64,000 nt of DNA from Haloarchaeobius sp. HME9146 (GTDB taxonomy: Archaea; Halobacteriota; Halobacteria; Halobacteriales; Natrialbaceae): positions 1,736,001 through 1,800,000 of the forward strand of contig NZ_JAODVR010000001.1 of assembly GCF_025399835.1 (NCBI RefSeq), given 5' to 3'. The position numbers and the translations under genes were made by a program. Below, in pieces: positions 5,742-52,488 of this stretch. Within the stretch, counting starts at the first letter, position 1; the number at the start of each line of letters is the position of its first letter. The notes beneath the pieces were generated by a model, which had not been told where the DNA came from, made no database searches, and saw only the letters and a list, made by a program, of their open reading frames with translations.

Positions 5742-7415
5742 CTACGGGTTCAGCCCCTTGAGCGCCGACCGGAAGAACACCAGCACGGGGATGATCTCCA
5801 GCCGACCGACCCACATGTTCAGGAGGAACATCGTCTCGGCGACGACCGGCATGTCGGGACCGGTGATGCCCGTCGAGAGGCCGACGTTGCCCTGGGCGCT
5901 CGCCACCTCGAACAGCGCGTCAGCGTAGCTGAAACCCGGCCCGGCAACGTTGACCAGCACCAGGCTCGTCGCGAGCAGCAGGATGAGCCAGAGCATGCTG
6001 ACGATGGCCGCCTCGGAGAACTCGCGGTCCATCTCCTCGCGCCCGAGTGTTCGGTCGCCGATGTCGACGTTGACCACGGCATTCGCCGGCAGGAACACCC
6101 GGGAGAACTGCCACTGGATGCCCTTCGAGACGGTGTAGCCGCGGATTATCTTGATGCCGCCGACGGTCGACCCGGCCGCGCCACCCATCGTCATCGCGCC
6201 CGAGATGAGCAGTTTCCCGCCGTCGGACCACCTGCCGATGGGCGAGGACTGGAAGCCGGTGCACGAGAGCGCGCTGACCCACTGGAACGTCGCGTCCCTG
6301 ATAGCGTCGAACTGGGCGGTCGAGAGGGTGGGTAGCGGTGACGGGACGGTCGCCCCGTACCCCGCCGACGCGAGGCCCACGAACAGGTTCTGTGCGGCGA
6401 GCACGACGATTCCCCCGCCGAGCAGCAGGAACAGCCAGCGCGTCTGGAGGTCCTCGACCAGCTCGCGCCATCTGCCGTCCGAGAGGATGGCGTAGTGGAT
6501 GGGGAACGCGATAGCACCGAGTGTCATCACCGGCAGGAGGACGGACTCGATGAGCGGTGAGTTGTACGTCTCCATCGAGTTGTCCGTCACGGAGAAACCC
6601 CCGGTCGAGAGCGCCGTCATCGCGTGGTTGAGTGCGTGCCAGAACGCCTCGCCCACTGGGTAGCCCTCGGCCAGCCAGATGACGAGGAACAGCGCGAGGA
6701 TGGAGAGCAGCGTGTAGCCGACGAATATCTTCCAGACGGTCCTGACCGTGGAGACGACACTCGGATGGATTTTCTCCTCGCGCGCCTCGGAGCGGTACAG
6801 CGCGTAGCTCCCGCTCCCGGGGCGCGAGAGGATGGAGACGGTGAGGACGATGACGCCGACCCCACCGACGTACTGGATGAGCGAGCGCCACCACTGGACC
6901 GAGTGCGGCAGCGACGGCTCGTGGATGGCCATCGTCAGCCCGCTCCCCGTCCAGCCGCTCATCGACTCGAACATGGCGTGCAGCGGGTTCCGGAAGTAGC
7001 CGAGACTGGACTTCGTCGCGAGCCCGCCCGCCGTGACCACCGACCAGTCGCTCGTGTCGGTCGCGGCCGGGACGTAGCCGTTCATGACGGTCTCGGGAGT
7101 GACCCAGGCGACGAGGAAGAACGCGAGCGCGCCGAAGACGGCCGTCGCGAACCAGCCGCCCGCGGCGATGACCATCCCGTGTTTCATCATCGGATCGGGG
7201 GCGTCCGTGAAGACGCGACGGCTCAGGCCCCCGAGGAGGGCGGTGACGCCCGCGGCGGTCAGGAAGCCGAGCGCCGGGTAGAGCTCACCGAAGACCAGGG
7301 CGACGAGGACGGTGAATCCCATCAGCCCGGCCTGCATGAGGAGGAGCGTGCCCACGTCCCGGAGGATGATCGCGAGGTCAGCCGGGACGCCGGCGACGGT
7401 GCGAGTGCGAGCCAT
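5742..7415 (-). CDS. trkH: TrkH-family potassium uptake channel subunit
   Basis: This is the integral membrane pore of a Trk/Ktr-type potassium uptake system. The 557-residue protein has about ten hydrophobic helices. It has the four pore-loop/filter segments of the family: MSGWTGSGLT, ALSTGGFSV, LSCTGFQSSP and GSTVGGIKIIR. The start ATG (7413-7415) directly abuts the trkA stop, so the two are translated from one transcript with TrkA as cytoplasmic gate. Potassium uptake is central to salt-in osmoadaptation, so it is probably well expressed. The N-terminal ~25 residues are polar. Confidence 0.95.
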   Translation of the reverse strand: MARTRTVAGVPADLAIILRDVGTLLLMQAGLMGFTVLVALVFGELYPALGFLTAAGVTALLGGLSRRVFTDAPDPMMKHGMVIAAGGWFATAVFGALAFFLVAWVTPETVMNGYVPAATDTSDWSVVTAGGLATKSSLGYFRNPLHAMFESMSGWTGSGLTMAIHEPSLPHSVQWWRSLIQYVGGVGVIVLTVSILSRPGSGSYALYRSEAREEKIHPSVVSTVRTVWKIFVGYTLLSILALFLVIWLAEGYPVGEAFWHALNHAMTALSTGGFSVTDNSMETYNSPLIESVLLPVMTLGAIAFPIHYAILSDGRWRELVEDLQTRWLFLLLGGGIVVLAAQNLFVGLASAGYGATVPSPLPTLSTAQFDAIRDATFQWVSALSCTGFQSSPIGRWSDGGKLLISGAMTMGGAAGSTVGGIKIIRGYTVSKGIQWQFSRVFLPANAVVNVDIGDRTLGREEMDREFSEAAIVSMLWLILLLATSLVLVNVAGPGFSYADALFEVASAQGNVGLSTGITGPDMPVVAETMFLLNMWVGRLEIIPVLVFFRSALKGLNP

Positions 7416-8105
7416 CTATTCGAGGTCGTGGTCCTCGTAGTGCCCGAAGATGTCGGTCACGTCCGGGGTCGCGCCGTGCTGGGCGTACACCGTGAGGAGG
7501 TCTCCGGGCTGCACGACGGTGTCGCCCCGCGGGGTGAGGGGGTCGCCGTTGCCGTTCCGCTCGATGGCGACGATGAGGATGCCGTGGTCCAGCACGCCCT
7601 CCCGGTTCGCCTCCTCGAGCGTGTAACCGGCGATGGGTGCCTGCTCGTCGACGGTTATCTCGAACACCTCTGCGGTGTCGCCGACCTTCATGTAGTCCTT
7701 GATAGAGGGGCGCTTGACCGCCCGGTAGAGGTATTCGGAGATGAGACGCTGGGGGTTCTCCATCGTCGTGACGCCGACGCGCTCGAAGAGGTTCATGTGT
7801 TCGGGGTTGTGGACCACGCTGACGACCGCCGGCACCTCGCGCTCCTTGGCGAGCAGCGAGACCATGATGTTCGTCGCGTCCTGGTCGGTCGTCGAGATGA
7901 TGGCGTCGGCGCGCTCGATGCCGGCTTCCTCGAGCGTCTCCGCCACCGTCGCGTCCGCGTTGATGACCAGACAGTCGAACTGCCGCGCGGCGGCATCCGC
8001 CTTCGACTCGTCTTGCTCGATGACCACGACCTCGTTCTCGTCACGGGTCGCGATCTCGATGAGGGGCGTCCCGATGTTGCCCGCACCGACGATGATGATA
8101 TACAT
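7416..8105 (-). CDS. trkA: TrkA potassium uptake regulatory protein (NAD-binding)
   Basis: This is the cytoplasmic regulatory subunit that binds NAD(H) or other nucleotides and gates TrkH. The 229-residue protein has an RCK_N Rossmann domain (IIIVGAGNIGTPL at residues 3-15, acidic end of beta-2 VVVIEQDE) and an RCK_C domain from about residue 140 to the end. The ATG at 8105 starts the protein with a glycine-rich loop almost at once, as usual. It is the first gene of the trkA-trkH pair. The 45-base gap to the halocyanin gene contains a short inverted repeat (8111-8127). Confidence 0.95.
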   Translation of the reverse strand: MYIIIVGAGNIGTPLIEIATRDENEVVVIEQDESKADAAARQFDCLVINADATVAETLEEAGIERADAIISTTDQDATNIMVSLLAKEREVPAVVSVVHNPEHMNLFERVGVTTMENPQRLISEYLYRAVKRPSIKDYMKVGDTAEVFEITVDEQAPIAGYTLEEANREGVLDHGILIVAIERNGNGDPLTPRGDTVVQPGDLLTVYAQHGATPDVTDIFGHYEDHDLE

Positions 8106-8150
8106 TAGGCGCGGGTTCAGGACCCGCCGTCGAAAAGGTACCGTTCTCGC

Positions 8151-8702
8151 TTATTCGGGGGTCTCGTAGTCGCCGCCGTACTTGAGGAAGACGAAGGCGA
8201 GCGAGAGCACCGACAGCATCGCGCCGAGGGTCGCCACGCCGATGGCCTTCGCCGAGTCGGGGAGCGCCGGCCCGCCGCCGCCACCGCCGCTGGACGGTGC
8301 CTGGCCGCTGTCGTTCACGACGATCTCACCCTTCATGCCGAGGCCAGCGTGGGGGTCACACTGGTACTCGTAGGTGCCCTTGGTGTCGAACGTCGAGGTG
8401 AACGAGAACCCGGTGTTCTCGATGGGCTTGTGGCCCTCCCAGGACGCGCCCTCGGGGACGCTGGTGGGGTTGACGTTGTGGTTGTCGGACTCCCAGACGA
8501 ACTCGACGGTGCCACCCGCGGCAACGTAGAGTGGGTCCTCGGTCCCCGGGGTGTAGACGTAGTTTCCGCCCGGACCGACCTTCACCGTCTTGGTCTCCTG
8601 TGCACTGGCCGTGTCAGCCGTAGCTGCGACGGCTGCTGCCCCTGCGGCGCCCGTCAGAAACTGCCGGCGAGAGATGGGCGCGTCCTCTGTGTCGCGGCTC
8701 AT
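8151..8702 (-). CDS. Halocyanin-type blue copper protein with C-terminal membrane anchor (copy 1)
   Basis: This is a secreted type 1 copper electron carrier. From ATG 8702 the 183-residue product has a Tat signal (SRRQFLTG at 11-18, then an Ala-rich stretch) and a plastocyanin-like domain with copper ligands H75, C115, H118 and M123 (CDPHAGLGM). A Gly/Ser linker and one C-terminal transmembrane helix (about 152-174) follow. An upstream in-frame ATG (8750) would overlap the M42 gene and spoil the Tat signal position. The copper domain is nearly identical, also in DNA, to the halocyanin at 19653-20312, which belongs to the bc-complex cluster, so a role in electron transfer between respiratory complexes is likely. 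Confidence 0.93.
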   Translation of the reverse strand: MSRDTEDAPISRRQFLTGAAGAAAVAATADTASAQETKTVKVGPGGNYVYTPGTEDPLYVAAGGTVEFVWESDNHNVNPTSVPEGASWEGHKPIENTGFSFTSTFDTKGTYEYQCDPHAGLGMKGEIVVNDSGQAPSSGGGGGGPALPDSAKAIGVATLGAMLSVLSLAFVFLKYGGDYETPE

Positions 8703-8746
8703 ACTGACCGCTTTGGAGTCGGTTGTAGTGAAATCTTCGATACGGC

Positions 8747-9799
8747 TCACAGCGTGTAGTCGTGTTCACCGTCTTCAGTTTCGAGGAACGCTGCGGTCAG
8801 GTCGATACACGCGGCGATGTCGTCGGCGTGGGCGACCTCTGTCGGCGTGTGGAGGTACCGGGTGGGAATCGAGACGGCCCCGACCGGGAGCGCGCCGTGA
8901 GAGTACTGCAGGCCACCAGTGTCGGTCCCGCCCGAGGGGAGAACCTCGAACTGGTGGTCGATGTCCTCGTCTTCGGCGACCGCGCGGAGCCGGCGGTGGA
9001 CCTTCGGGTTCGTGATGACCGAGGAGTCCTTCAGCTTGATGCCAGCACCGTCGCCGAGCCGGGTGATGTGGTCCCACTTCTCGAAGCCGGTGATGTCGTT
9101 GGCGACGGTGGTGTCGAGCGCGATGGCGAGGTCCGGGTCCACGTCGACGCCGAGTGCCTCCGCACCGCGGAGGCCGACCTCTTCCTGGACCGTCGCGGCG
9201 AAATGGACGGTCACGTCGGGGTCCTCGATGCGCCGCGCGAGTTCGAGCATGATGAACACCGAGACGCGATTGTCGATTGATTTCCCGGAGATGCAGTCGC
9301 CGAGGACTTCGGTGTCCTGTGACATCGTCACGAGGTCACCGACCGAGACCAGTTCGTCCACCTCGTCGGCCGGGAGCCCGAGGTCGACCGTCACGTCGTG
9401 GACCGTGCGCTCCTCGTCGTCGTCCTCGCCGCCGGTGTGGGGCGGGACCGAGCCGATGACGCCCGGGAGGTCGCCGTCCTCGGTGCGAATGTTGACCCGC
9501 TCGGCACGGAGAATCTGGGGGTCCCAGCCACCGAGCGCGTCGATGGTGACGAAGCCGTTCTCGTCGACGTGTCTGACCATGAAGCCGATCTCGTCCATGT
9601 GGGCCGCGACGAGGACGCTGTAATCGCTGTCGCCCTCGATGGTGCCGACGAGGTTGCCCATCCCGTCGCTCTCGATGGCGTCTACCTCCGGGTCGAGCTC
9701 GCGACGGACGATGTCGCGAACGGCGTCTTCGTACCCGGGCGCTCCGTGGGTCTCCATGAGTTCGACGAGGAGCTCGTAATCGAAGTCGAAAGAGGTCAT
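8747..9799 (-). CDS. M42-family metallo-aminopeptidase
   Basis: This is a cytoplasmic, probably dodecameric, TET-like dinuclear aminopeptidase that finishes peptides released by the proteasome. The 350-residue product carries the metal and catalytic motifs VAAHMDEIG, SIDNRVSV, VQEEVGLRGA, IALDTT and the C-terminal TPTEVAH histidine. An acidic haloarchaeal insertion (TGGEDDDEERT) is visible near residue 140. The start is the ATG at 9799; the frame remains open further left but the upstream part is antisense to the EamA gene. It may be co-transcribed with halocyanin copy 1 downstream (44-base gap). Confidence 0.93.
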   Translation of the reverse strand: MTSFDFDYELLVELMETHGAPGYEDAVRDIVRRELDPEVDAIESDGMGNLVGTIEGDSDYSVLVAAHMDEIGFMVRHVDENGFVTIDALGGWDPQILRAERVNIRTEDGDLPGVIGSVPPHTGGEDDDEERTVHDVTVDLGLPADEVDELVSVGDLVTMSQDTEVLGDCISGKSIDNRVSVFIMLELARRIEDPDVTVHFAATVQEEVGLRGAEALGVDVDPDLAIALDTTVANDITGFEKWDHITRLGDGAGIKLKDSSVITNPKVHRRLRAVAEDEDIDHQFEVLPSGGTDTGGLQYSHGALPVGAVSIPTRYLHTPTEVAHADDIAACIDLTAAFLETEDGEHDYTL

Positions 9800-9906
9800 G
9801 CCAGAGACTGCCGTACCGCACACGTAAAAACTGGCCGAATCCGGCCGATACACCGGCTCTCCCGCCTGCGTTTCCGTTACTGGATATTTCCAATCGCGGC
9901 TGGATG

Positions 9907-10851
9907 TCAGGGCAGCCGGTCCGTCGACAGCCGCCGCCGGAGGTACCCGGAGAGCGCGTGGCGCTTGATGAGCGCGAAGCCGGCGAAGATGATGGTGAAC
10001 CCGAACAGGGTCGTGCTGTCGACGAGGTCGCCGAAGAGGAGCCAGGTCGCGACGGTCGCGACGACGGGTTCGAGGTAGCCGACGAGGTTGATCTCGGTCG
10101 GCCCGAGGCGGTCGAGCAGTTCGAAGTAGAGCAGGAACGCGACGACACCCGAGACCAGCGTGAGGTAGGTGAGCGACACCACGGCGGGGCCGGTCCATTC
10201 GATGGCCGCGAAGGACTCGCCCCGCCCGAAGCTCACGACGTGGAGTAGCCCCGCACCGAGCAGCATCGACCAGCCCTCCATGGTCTGGACGGGGAGCCCG
10301 GAGTCCAGCGGACGCGTCAGGACCGTCCCGAGGGCGAAGCTCGTCCCCGCGATGAACACGAGGAGCACGCCGATGAGGCTGGTCGACAGTGCGGTTCCCG
10401 GCTCGGGCTGGACGACGACCACGACGCCGGCGATGCCACAGAGGAACCCGATGGCCCCGAGGGGCTGGAGCGGGTCGTCGACCTTGAGGACGCTGCCGAA
10501 GCCCGCGGTCAGGATGGGCGAGAGGCTGATGACGACCGCGGCGACCGCGCCCGAGATGTGCTGTTCTCCGATGTAGAGGAGTGCGTGGTAGGCGGCGAAG
10601 ACGAAGACCGCGGTCACCGCGGTCTGGAGCCACTCGTCACGCTCGCGGGGCCGCCAGCGGTCGGTCGAGTAGAGGGCGTAGCCGAGGACGATGAGTCCGG
10701 CCACGTCGTACCGCAATGCGGCGAAGAGGATGGGTGGGAAGTGATGGAGACCGACCTCGATGGCGACGAAGGAGGTGCCCCAGAGCGTTGCCAGAATGAG
10801 GAACATTCCGCTCGTATCTGAAAGTCGTCTCCAAAGGTTCGCGTGAAACAT
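9907..10851 (-). CDS. EamA/DMT-family membrane exporter
   Basis: The 314-residue product has ten predicted transmembrane helices arranged as two EamA repeats (start FLILATLWGTSFVAIEVG; the second repeat follows a loop near residue 155). It belongs to the drug/metabolite transporter superfamily, which exports amino acids or other small metabolites. The substrate is unknown. The gene is divergent from an Lrp/AsnC-type regulator across an A+T-rich 189-base region, which suggests control by that regulator and favours an amino-acid-like substrate (inference). An internal ATG at 10806 is an alternative start. Confidence 0.9.
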   Translation of the reverse strand: MFHANLWRRLSDTSGMFLILATLWGTSFVAIEVGLHHFPPILFAALRYDVAGLIVLGYALYSTDRWRPRERDEWLQTAVTAVFVFAAYHALLYIGEQHISGAVAAVVISLSPILTAGFGSVLKVDDPLQPLGAIGFLCGIAGVVVVVQPEPGTALSTSLIGVLLVFIAGTSFALGTVLTRPLDSGLPVQTMEGWSMLLGAGLLHVVSFGRGESFAAIEWTGPAVVSLTYLTLVSGVVAFLLYFELLDRLGPTEINLVGYLEPVVATVATWLLFGDLVDSTTLFGFTIIFAGFALIKRHALSGYLRRRLSTDRLP

Positions 10852-50095: not shown

Positions 50096-51085
50096 ATGGC
50101 TGTGGCCGACCGACAATCCTGTGACGGCTGCGACCGCCAGTTCTCCCTCGAGCGCCTGGCCACCGTCCGGATGCCCGGCGGCTCACGATCGGTCTGCTGT
50201 CCGGACTGTCGAGCGTTCGCCGAGTCCGTCAGCTCCAGGGCGGAGTTCGAACGAGACGAACACGAGTGTGACGGCTGTTCGCGAGCGTTCTCGCTGGCGG
50301 ACCTGACCACCGTCGAGATGCCCGGCGGCTCACGCTCCGTCTGCTGTCCCGAGTGTCGAGCGTTCGCCGAGTCCGTCAGCACCAAGGCTGAACTCGGCGA
50401 GCGTCGCCGGGCCTGTGACGGGTGTTCACGGGAGTTCGCGCTCGACAACCTCGCCGTCGTCGACATGCCGGGTGGGAAGCAATCCATCTGCTGTCCGGAG
50501 TGTCGAACGTTCGCCGAGTCCGTCAGTAGCAAGGCAGAACTCGGGGACCGCCGCCGCGAATGTGACGGCTGTACCAGGGAGTTCCCCGTCTCGGACCTCG
50601 ACGAGATACTGCTCCCGGACGGAACGAGCGTGCTCTGCTGTGCGACGTGCAGCGAACACGCGCCCCAGGAGGAGGAGACCGACGACGTCGACGAGGACCG
50701 TCGACAGGACGCCGAACGCGAGACGGCGACCGAACTCGCGAACAAGGAACCCTCGAAGGCGATACAGACCCGCAACCTCTGTTCGCAGTGCAAGGAGTGG
50801 TGCTCGGTCGAACTCTACCGTGTCGAGATCAACGACAGGCGGACCGAGAACTTCTGCCCGGACTGTCTGGAACTCGCCCGGAGCCGCGGCATCGTCACGA
50901 ACGTCCGCATGCGACAGGCCGAAGCCTACGAGACGCTCGGCATCGACGGGGCGTCGGACGCGGAGGAACTGCGTGATGCGTACATCGAGCGCGTGAAGGA
51001 GGTCCATCCCGACCGGGCGGGCGGGAGCAGAGCCGCGTTCAAGGCCGTACAGCGGGCGTACGAACGACTCGACGCGGAGTTCTAG
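50096..51085 (+). CDS. Protein with four tandem zinc-ribbon repeats and a C-terminal J domain
   Basis: The 329-residue product has four Cys4 repeats with an exact 49-residue period (CDGC starting at C9, C58, C107 and C156; CCPDC/CCPEC at 34-38, 83-87, 132-136; CCATC at 181-185). An acidic linker (190-225), a fifth, different Cys4 ribbon (C229/C232, C254/C257) and a J domain (about 276-329) with the HPD triad at H304-P305-D306 follow. J domains stimulate Hsp70 (DnaK) ATPase, and the ribbons may bind substrate proteins or RNA. It is divergent from the Zn ATPase and its stop abuts that of a TIR protein. I know no characterised homologue. Confidence 0.9.
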   Translation: MAVADRQSCDGCDRQFSLERLATVRMPGGSRSVCCPDCRAFAESVSSRAEFERDEHECDGCSRAFSLADLTTVEMPGGSRSVCCPECRAFAESVSTKAELGERRRACDGCSREFALDNLAVVDMPGGKQSICCPECRTFAESVSSKAELGDRRRECDGCTREFPVSDLDEILLPDGTSVLCCATCSEHAPQEEETDDVDEDRRQDAERETATELANKEPSKAIQTRNLCSQCKEWCSVELYRVEINDRRTENFCPDCLELARSRGIVTNVRMRQAEAYETLGIDGASDAEELRDAYIERVKEVHPDRAGGSRAAFKAVQRAYERLDAEF

Positions 51086-51709
51086 TCACTGGGTCGCCGG
51101 GCCGGCCGGGTCCTGCCGTTCGACGTAGCCCAGCGTGACCGGGTTGAACAGGTACCGCGAGTTGCACTCGTCACAGGTCGCAAGCAGCGGCTGGTTGTGC
51201 TTGTACTGCTGCCAGAGGCCTTTCTGCGTCGCGTCGATGTCCAGAATCACTGGATGGTTACAGCCCTCGAAGTTACACGGGAACCGGACGTACCAGTTCG
51301 GCGTCGAGAGCGTGCCGAGTGGCGCGAGTTCGGCACGCAGGCGACAGAGCAGGTTGAACACGGTCACCGGTATCTCGTCACGGTCGAGCTGGACGCCCTC
51401 GACGTTCGCGATGTAGCCCGGTCGGTCGACGCCCTCGTCGTACATCGGCAGCACCGGGACGCCCTTGGCGACGGCGAACCCGACCTCCTGGTTCACCCAC
51501 GGCTCGGTCACGTGGTCGCGAGTGAACAGCGCGATGACGAGGTCGGAGTTCGCGAGCCGCCCCTTGAGGTCTGTGCGGGTTCGGCCCGACTCGATCTCCT
51601 CCATGGCGAGATAGAAATCCATAGGGAGGTTCCGCACCGTCCCGAAGAGCTCCTGGGCCAGTTCGAGGTCCTCGGCCGCGTGCGACACGAAGACCTGCGC
51701 GTCGGTCAT
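51086..51709 (-). CDS. TIR-domain protein with C-terminal zinc ribbon
   Basis: The 207-residue product starts with a TIR fold (VFVSHAAEDLELAQEL at 6-21, DLVIALFTRDH around 56-66). The W71-x3-E75 of PWVNQEVGFA matches the catalytic-Glu position of NAD-cleaving TIR domains. From about 140 a Cys4 ribbon follows (C145/C150, C179/C182). TIR proteins often act in antiphage defence or make NAD-derived signals; no Thoeris-type ThsA partner is visible. It converges on the J-domain gene with no base between the stops. Confidence 0.9.
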   Translation of the reverse strand: MTDAQVFVSHAAEDLELAQELFGTVRNLPMDFYLAMEEIESGRTRTDLKGRLANSDLVIALFTRDHVTEPWVNQEVGFAVAKGVPVLPMYDEGVDRPGYIANVEGVQLDRDEIPVTVFNLLCRLRAELAPLGTLSTPNWYVRFPCNFEGCNHPVILDIDATQKGLWQQYKHNQPLLATCDECNSRYLFNPVTLGYVERQDPAGPATQ

Positions 51710-51843: not shown

Positions 51844-52488
51844 TCAGAGCGGGGAGACGAGGTCTTCGAGCGCGGCACGCGGGTCCTCGGCCTTCGCGAC
51901 ACCGGAGGCGAGGAGGACGCCGGTCGACCCGAGTTCGCCGGCGGCTTCGAGGTCGTCACCGGTCGAGATGCCGGCACCACAGAGGACGTCGACGCTCTCG
52001 TCGACCGACTCGGCGGCCTCGACCGCGCCGGTGACGATGTCCGGGTCGGCCTGGCTCACGGGCGTCCCGGTCCCGATGAGTTCCGGGGGCTCGACCGCGA
52101 CCGAGTCCGGCCCCAGCGCGGCGGCCGCACCGATCTGGCGCGGGTTGTTCGCACAGACGATGGTCTCCAGGTCCGCGCGCTCGGCTGCTCGCAAGGAGCC
52201 GTCGATGTCGGCGAGCTTCAGCCGGTTCTCGGAGTGGTTCAGGAGCGTGCCGACCGCGCCAGCGTCAGCCGCGGCCTCGGCCAGCGTGCTGCCGGTGTGG
52301 CTGCCGTGCTCGACCGGGCTGACGTGCTGGGCCCACGTCTCGACGCCGGTCGCTGCCACGCGCTGCAGGTGCGCGGCCTGTGGTGCCACCGCGATACGGA
52401 CGCCAGAGTCGTCGCTCACGTTCGCTGCCGCTGTCGCGACCTCGACCGGGTCACACGGGTATGCCTTCAGATTGACGAGTACGAACAT
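51844..52488 (-). CDS. tpiA: Triosephosphate isomerase
   Basis: This glycolytic/gluconeogenic enzyme is of the short archaeal form (214 residues, against about 250 in bacteria). It begins [11 protein letters not shown] (substrate-binding Asn/Lys), has TLLNHSENR (catalytic His), [12 protein letters not shown] (catalytic Glu and flexible loop) and VLCGAGIS plus [11 protein letters not shown] for the phosphate site. Single gene; its pathway partner operon fba-fbp is 10 kb away. Confidence 0.95.

Follow-up and report, generated by a model that had tools for sequence, protein, structure and literature searches.

TIR domains that cleave NAD+, such as those of SARM1, SPARTA TIR-APAZ and AbTir, are patchy in their occurrence, and nearly all work on them concerns their part as effectors of immunity or cell death. 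In archaea, TcpA and TcpO (from Theionarchaea and Methanobrevibacter) are described as NADases: TcpA cleaves NAD+ and NAD-RNA (deNAMing) and is dead after an E-to-A exchange, and TcpO cleaves only NAD+ (PMC10937652). NAD-RNA has also been reported in Haloferax volcanii and Sulfolobus (PMC10663502). A TIR domain is likewise found in Thoeris ThsB, and the TIR fold is held in common with nucleoside 2'-deoxyribosyltransferases and DNPH1.

Here we describe an archaeal protein that shares the fold of the TIR NADases, with a W-x3-E motif that aligns with bacterial TIRs, but differs from them in having a four-Cys domain instead of sensing partners, in being encoded by a fixed core gene, in the loss of the Trp in methanogens, and in that its activity is predicted. 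Like TcpA and TcpO it is an archaeal TIR protein, set apart from them by their description, with constructs of 327 and 341 aa compared to 207 aa here and the word "zinc" absent from the main text of that source (PMC10937652). Compared to Thoeris ThsB, whose PADLOC models it matches over the TIR domain, the gene lacks a nearby ThsA or defence context and encodes an extra C-terminal domain. Nucleoside 2'-deoxyribosyltransferases score similarly to TIRs in structural comparison, although their Pfam model misses its cut-off, and to our knowledge a zinc domain is absent from these enzymes and from DNPH1. We found neither a named family in Pfam, PADLOC, or NCBIfam for the whole TIR plus four-Cys architecture nor a paper on an archaeal TIR-zinc protein.

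The gene was found in a 64,000-nucleotide stretch of the Haloarchaeobius sp. HME9146 genome (the window), and its features and neighbours are listed below.

Features of the TIR-zinc locus (positions within the window)
Feature	Position	Strand	Evidence
TIR plus C-terminal four-Cys domain protein, 207 aa (P0001)	51086..51709	-	ORF, Pfam, conservation
TIR domain, residues ~3-126, with W71 and E75 in W-x3-E	51332..51703	-	Pfam TIR_2, model, SARM1/SPARTA fold matches
C-terminal domain, residues 129-207: C145-x4-C150 ... C179-x2-C182, then (D/N)PxT(L/I) motif	51089..51325	-	
J-domain protein with repeated CxxC modules, convergent to the TIR gene	50096..51085	+	Pfam DnaJ, E 3.8e-9
tpiA, triose-phosphate isomerase, upstream of the TIR gene	51844..52488	-	Pfam TIM, E 6.5e-37

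The reading frame is open and begins with an ATG that is backed by homologues starting at the same Met. It meets the J-domain gene tail to tail, with adjoining stop codons. The G+C content around the gene (0.656-0.673 per 2 kb) is similar to that of the remainder of the window. Residues 6-109 match Pfam TIR_2 (PF13676) at 39 bits (E 1.4e-9; cut-off, 28 bits), a threshold also passed by all eight relatives scanned, and the gene provides the one TIR_2 match in the window's genome. The W71-x3-E75 motif and the cysteines C145, C150, C179, and C182, which a first-pass annotation of the window had read as a TIR domain and a zinc ribbon, are at the positions claimed.

The AF2 model shows a TIR fold at good confidence (pLDDT 84.7, pTM 0.80) and was matched to SARM1 by Foldseek (E 1.3e-5). 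In VIA-align, a match to SPARTA (Z 13.3, rmsd 3.3, 145 residues) was tied with one to the deoxyribosyltransferase 7o62 (Z 12.9, rmsd 2.3, 118 residues), so that the closest structures appear to be two NAD-cleaving TIRs, those of SARM1 and SPARTA, the latter on a par with a deoxyribosyltransferase. As TIR and deoxyribosyltransferase folds are both N-glycosidase folds, a substrate with an N-glycosidic bond suggests itself, most likely NAD+. The C-terminal domain modelled alone reached a pLDDT of 86.6 and matched no solved structure below E 0.61 in Foldseek (best Z 3.2); a zinc ribbon is absent from the PDB matches listed for it, which excludes nothing. Its Cys pairs have ribbon spacing (C-x4-C and C-x2-C, 28 residues apart). 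Thus, the four-Cys domain of the first-pass annotation stands, with the label "zinc ribbon" drawn from its cysteine spacing and strands rather than from a fold match. The nucleic-acid sensing that had been thought possible for this ribbon is disfavoured, as is generic nucleic-acid binding, by a median net charge of the domain that is neutral to acidic in every lineage (haloarchaea, -1, n = 110; methanogens, -3, n = 58; Thaumarchaeota, 0, n = 3; Thermoplasmata, -10, n = 2), although protein acidity is normal in halophiles. The charge favours contact with a protein over contact with RNA, without proving it.

Residue conservation was tallied over 172 sequences: 105 from the window's family (f1), seven from other members of the order, and 42 of the 43 and 18 of the 46 near-full-length sequences from two methanogen families (f33 and f19, respectively). 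E75 is kept in 171 of them (f1, 104/105; other order members, 7/7; f33, 42/42; f19, 18/18), the sole exception being a decayed fragment (G054), and G77 is present in all 172. The frequency of the catalytic Glu need not track TIR activity, according to an earlier account (PMC7075850). W71 is found in all 112 haloarchaeal sequences, whereas W is outside the four commonest residues of this column in the methanogens (n = 60), suggesting that the pocket differs there. All four cysteines occur in 111 of the 112 haloarchaeal sequences; in the methanogens, C150 and C179 are Cys in 60/60 and C182 in 59/60, and the first Cys lies two residues later, forming a CxxC. Overall, 168 of the 172 relatives have a CxxC or Cx4C, 22-34 residues, a CxxC, and a P-x-T-like motif. 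With W71 and the four cysteines near-invariant in the haloarchaea and E75 in all sequences tallied, these residues are not a matter of chance. The median dN/dS of the TIR gene is 0.25 (4015 pairs, dS 0.05-1) vs. 0.12 for tpiA, indicating purifying selection on the coding sequence.

Within the window's family, 105 of 125 genomes, representing 27 of 29 genera, encode a match, making the gene the rule there and not, as first supposed, unusual in a haloarchaeon. Two of these copies, both from one genus, are broken: one is frameshifted into two pieces (G071) and the other is the fragment G054. A sample of the order yielded matches in 90 of 392 genomes, only seven of them outside the window's family, and a sample of the phylum (294 genomes, 54-row alignment A2) revealed, apart from TIR-only matches, near-full-length relatives in two further families, f33 and f19. 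Within these families, 46 of 50 f33 genomes match (43 near full length), as do 54 of 111 f19 genomes (46 near full length); we take f33 and f19 to resemble Methanotrichaceae and Methanosarcinaceae, respectively. Among the named control genomes, Methanosarcina acetivorans matches TIR_2. Scans of genome and viral contigs with the single sequence were empty, the six exact peptide patterns probably being too strict; the alignment query of the genome contigs recovered 75 loci. Named relatives stem from Haloarchaeobius, Natrinema, Natrialba, Halovivax, Halorubellus, and Halostella. Relatives with both Cys pairs are also carried by three Thaumarchaeota MAGs (L104, L106, and L108) and two Thermoplasmata (L110 and L111). 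In the class of one of these Thaumarchaeota MAGs, nine of 150 genomes match, with the C-terminal domain covered only in the query's own genome; the architecture is thus rare in Nitrososphaeria (1/150 genomes sampled).

Profiles of the C-terminal domains alone matched between haloarchaea and methanogens (E 1.1e-5), haloarchaea and Thaumarchaeota (E 6.1e-6), methanogens and Thaumarchaeota (E 3e-11), and against the Thermoplasmata (E 6e-6 to 2e-5), all as single-pair E-values, and on this basis the domains look homologous between lineages. In a tree of the TIR domain only (54 rows), the lineages are mostly well supported, and the deep forks are weak and neither show nor exclude a single origin of the architecture. 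Such an origin is likely, though not proven.

In its haloarchaeal family, the TIR gene is a single-copy chromosomal gene at a fixed locus. Its upstream neighbour is tpiA at 102 of the 105 family loci, and the pair of tpiA and the J-domain gene flanks it in five of seven loci outside the family; two haloarchaea of another family (G148 and G159) lack the tpiA context, and the ORFs near the G148 copy look metabolic by eye. The gene was lost in 20 of the 125 family genomes and is therefore not essential. In all 13 of these genomes that were examined, tpiA and the upstream MBF1 gene are kept and no TIR gene remnant lies within ~1.5 kb of tpiA; these losses are clean deletions that left the neighbouring genes in place. 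Pairwise distances of the TIR protein correlate with those of TpiA (r 0.62, 46 loci) and the CDP-alcohol phosphatidyltransferase (r 0.68, 40 loci), but only weakly with adenylate kinase (r 0.37). The housekeeping genes correlate more strongly among themselves (r 0.79-0.86). This pattern points to inheritance that is vertical for the most part, combined with either quicker evolution or a degree of exchange. Median identities are 0.71 for the TIR protein, 0.86 for TpiA, 0.74 for adenylate kinase, and 0.55 for the J-domain protein. In the window, the latter comprises three to four copies of a Cys-rich module (Pfam ATPase-cat_bd-like); its 226-aa Natrinema relative has fewer of them. The J-domain protein is encoded in 92 of the 125 family genomes (E <= 1e-6).

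These observations bear on whether the protein acts in defence. A core, stand-alone immune NADase, silent until the zinc domain senses a virus and then causing cell death by NAD+ depletion, would be in line with TIR NADases being known mostly from immunity and with the matches of residues 3-92 to PADLOC ThsB models (E 4e-7) and of the protein to NCBIfam ThcB4 (E 6.3e-8), although the latter, at 31.9 vs. 220 bits, is far under its cut-off. We nevertheless consider it unlikely for a near-universal gene that is fixed beside tpiA and under purifying selection. Ten further neighbours in the window had no PADLOC match at E <= 1e-3, and ten proteins near relatives gave a single marginal defence match, to LmuA (E 0.0009, over 39 residues of an oxidoreductase-like ORF), which we take as chance. 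No relative was found in viral contigs with either single-sequence or alignment queries, and matches in phage records were TIR-only, in two Streptococcus phages. Distribution, place, selection (dN/dS 0.25), and neighbours thus do not fit the defence sensor-effector proposed in the first-pass annotation, nor was defence-island association seen in relatives as far as tested. Its remark that no Thoeris partner is nearby agrees with our scans of the window neighbours, including two others in which PADLOC detected no ThsA at E <= 1. Thoeris membership was rejected, as no ThsA is detectable nearby and curated TIR models score below their cut-offs (Pfam ThsB_TIR, 17.5 vs. 21.2 bits). For the STALD receptor (PF18185), neither the window's genome nor any control genome had a match. 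A mobile defence gene was likewise dismissed given the 105 of 125 genomes, the one locus in 102 of 105 loci, and the ten neighbours free of PADLOC matches. A mobile origin fared no better, as the sole plasmid record of the whole protein is a Natrinema replicon of 987 kb on which tpiA is found as well.

Two further explanations depart from NAD+ cleavage. The protein could be a non-enzymatic adaptor whose TIR and zinc domains serve protein-protein assembly only, e.g. with its J-domain neighbour, a zinc protein encoded convergently in 83 of 105 family loci whose pairwise distances correlate most strongly with the TIR protein's (r 0.78). Yet the J-domain gene is missing beside 22 of the 105 copies and the TIR gene survives there, and the almost invariant E75 and G77 over distant archaea are not obviously needed by an adaptor, so that we regard this role as rather doubtful. 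Alternatively, a glycosidase or transferase of the deoxyribosyltransferase kind, processing nucleosides or nucleotides other than NAD, would explain why 7o62 ties with the TIRs in the structural comparison, and is hinted at by a weak match to PF05014 (E 0.023). That match scores 15.3 bits where 28.8 would be needed, TIR_2 does pass its cut-off, and the first strand has the form SHxxxD, which is TIR-like, making such an enzyme very improbable.

The explanation we prefer is an old, fixed archaeal TIR enzyme, probably an N-glycosidase, that is controlled by its zinc domain and serves cell physiology rather than acting as a mobile antiviral module; as its catalysis is predicted only, we give it about even chances. 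In its favour are the core distribution beside tpiA, the clean losses, the distances that correlate with those of housekeeping neighbours, the purifying selection, the shared architecture in methanogens, the near-invariant E75 and G77, the fold, and the housekeeping contexts. Against it stand the loss of W71 in methanogens, the caution on the Glu from PMC7075850, the differing contexts, the weaker correlation than among the neighbours themselves, the rarity in Nitrososphaeria, the losses within the family, and the weak deep forks. The enzyme activity, zinc binding, control, and biological role that we infer would be as follows. The TIR domain probably releases nicotinamide from NAD(P)+ or from a nucleotide resembling NAD, E75 being the putative catalytic Glu. 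The predicted zinc-binding C-terminal domain probably controls assembly or activity via a protein partner, and the enzyme may act in NAD/adenylate or stress control linked to central metabolism and translation. The TIR-zinc gene, a mostly vertically inherited core gene of one haloarchaeal family that is common in two methanogen families and has a near-invariant Glu, is a case on which a non-immune role of TIR enzymes can be tested. Methanosarcina is genetically tractable, and together with Natrinema-like haloarchaea it makes this question approachable by gene removal.

Gene contexts vary by lineage. Although they have no one pathway in common, the settings that could be identified, tpiA included, are of the housekeeping kind. 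In 16 of 42 f33 loci, the TIR gene lies 81-395 bp upstream of a same-strand Methyltrn_RNA_3 gene (Pfam E 7.4e-52 in L158). Next come rpl3 (Pfam E 9.1e-91 in L158) and, on contigs that are long enough, rpl4 and rpl23. With one further locus at 3.3 kb from Methyltrn_RNA_3/rpl3, this context spans 17 loci and seven of 11 genera, counts in which several contigs end too early to show the neighbours. The methanogen loci with this RNA methyltransferase-rpl3-rpl4-rpl23 context were observed among L158, L160-L162, and L235-L267, while the f33 genomes L156, L157, and L159 have a DHQS gene near the TIR gene. The ribosomal-operon context, together with the deNAMing by TcpA (PMC10937652), would favour a housekeeping TIR from an early archaeal ancestor, that is, a standing glycohydrolase of NAD or NAD-capped RNA whose zinc domain attaches to the machinery of translation or of transcription. 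If that were so, archaeal NAD-RNA turnover or NAD control would be work done by a TIR, and immune TIRs could have been recruited from it. The acidic charge of the C-terminal domain and the lineage-specific contexts argue against this reading, and we consider it quite improbable.

All three Thaumarchaeota loci have two same-strand CBS-domain genes upstream, the nearer one ending 14-21 bp before the TIR gene, and a convergent gene for a CBS-M50 protease after it. The CBS assignments come from Pfam on L104, with the nearer gene also confirmed by Pfam in L106 and L108. CBS domains are adenine-nucleotide binders. Several CBS-domain proteins and the CBS-M50 protease surround the TIR gene in these MAGs (about 6200-10600), and a universal stress protein is encoded near it in L104. 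Ten of the 18 f19 loci examined (L145, L269-L271, and others) encode, downstream of the TIR gene, a 134-aa protein without a Pfam match, and three loci of one f19 genus (L148, L149, and L152; c16) have a RuBisCO-like gene, recognized by eye, ~0.9 kb downstream.
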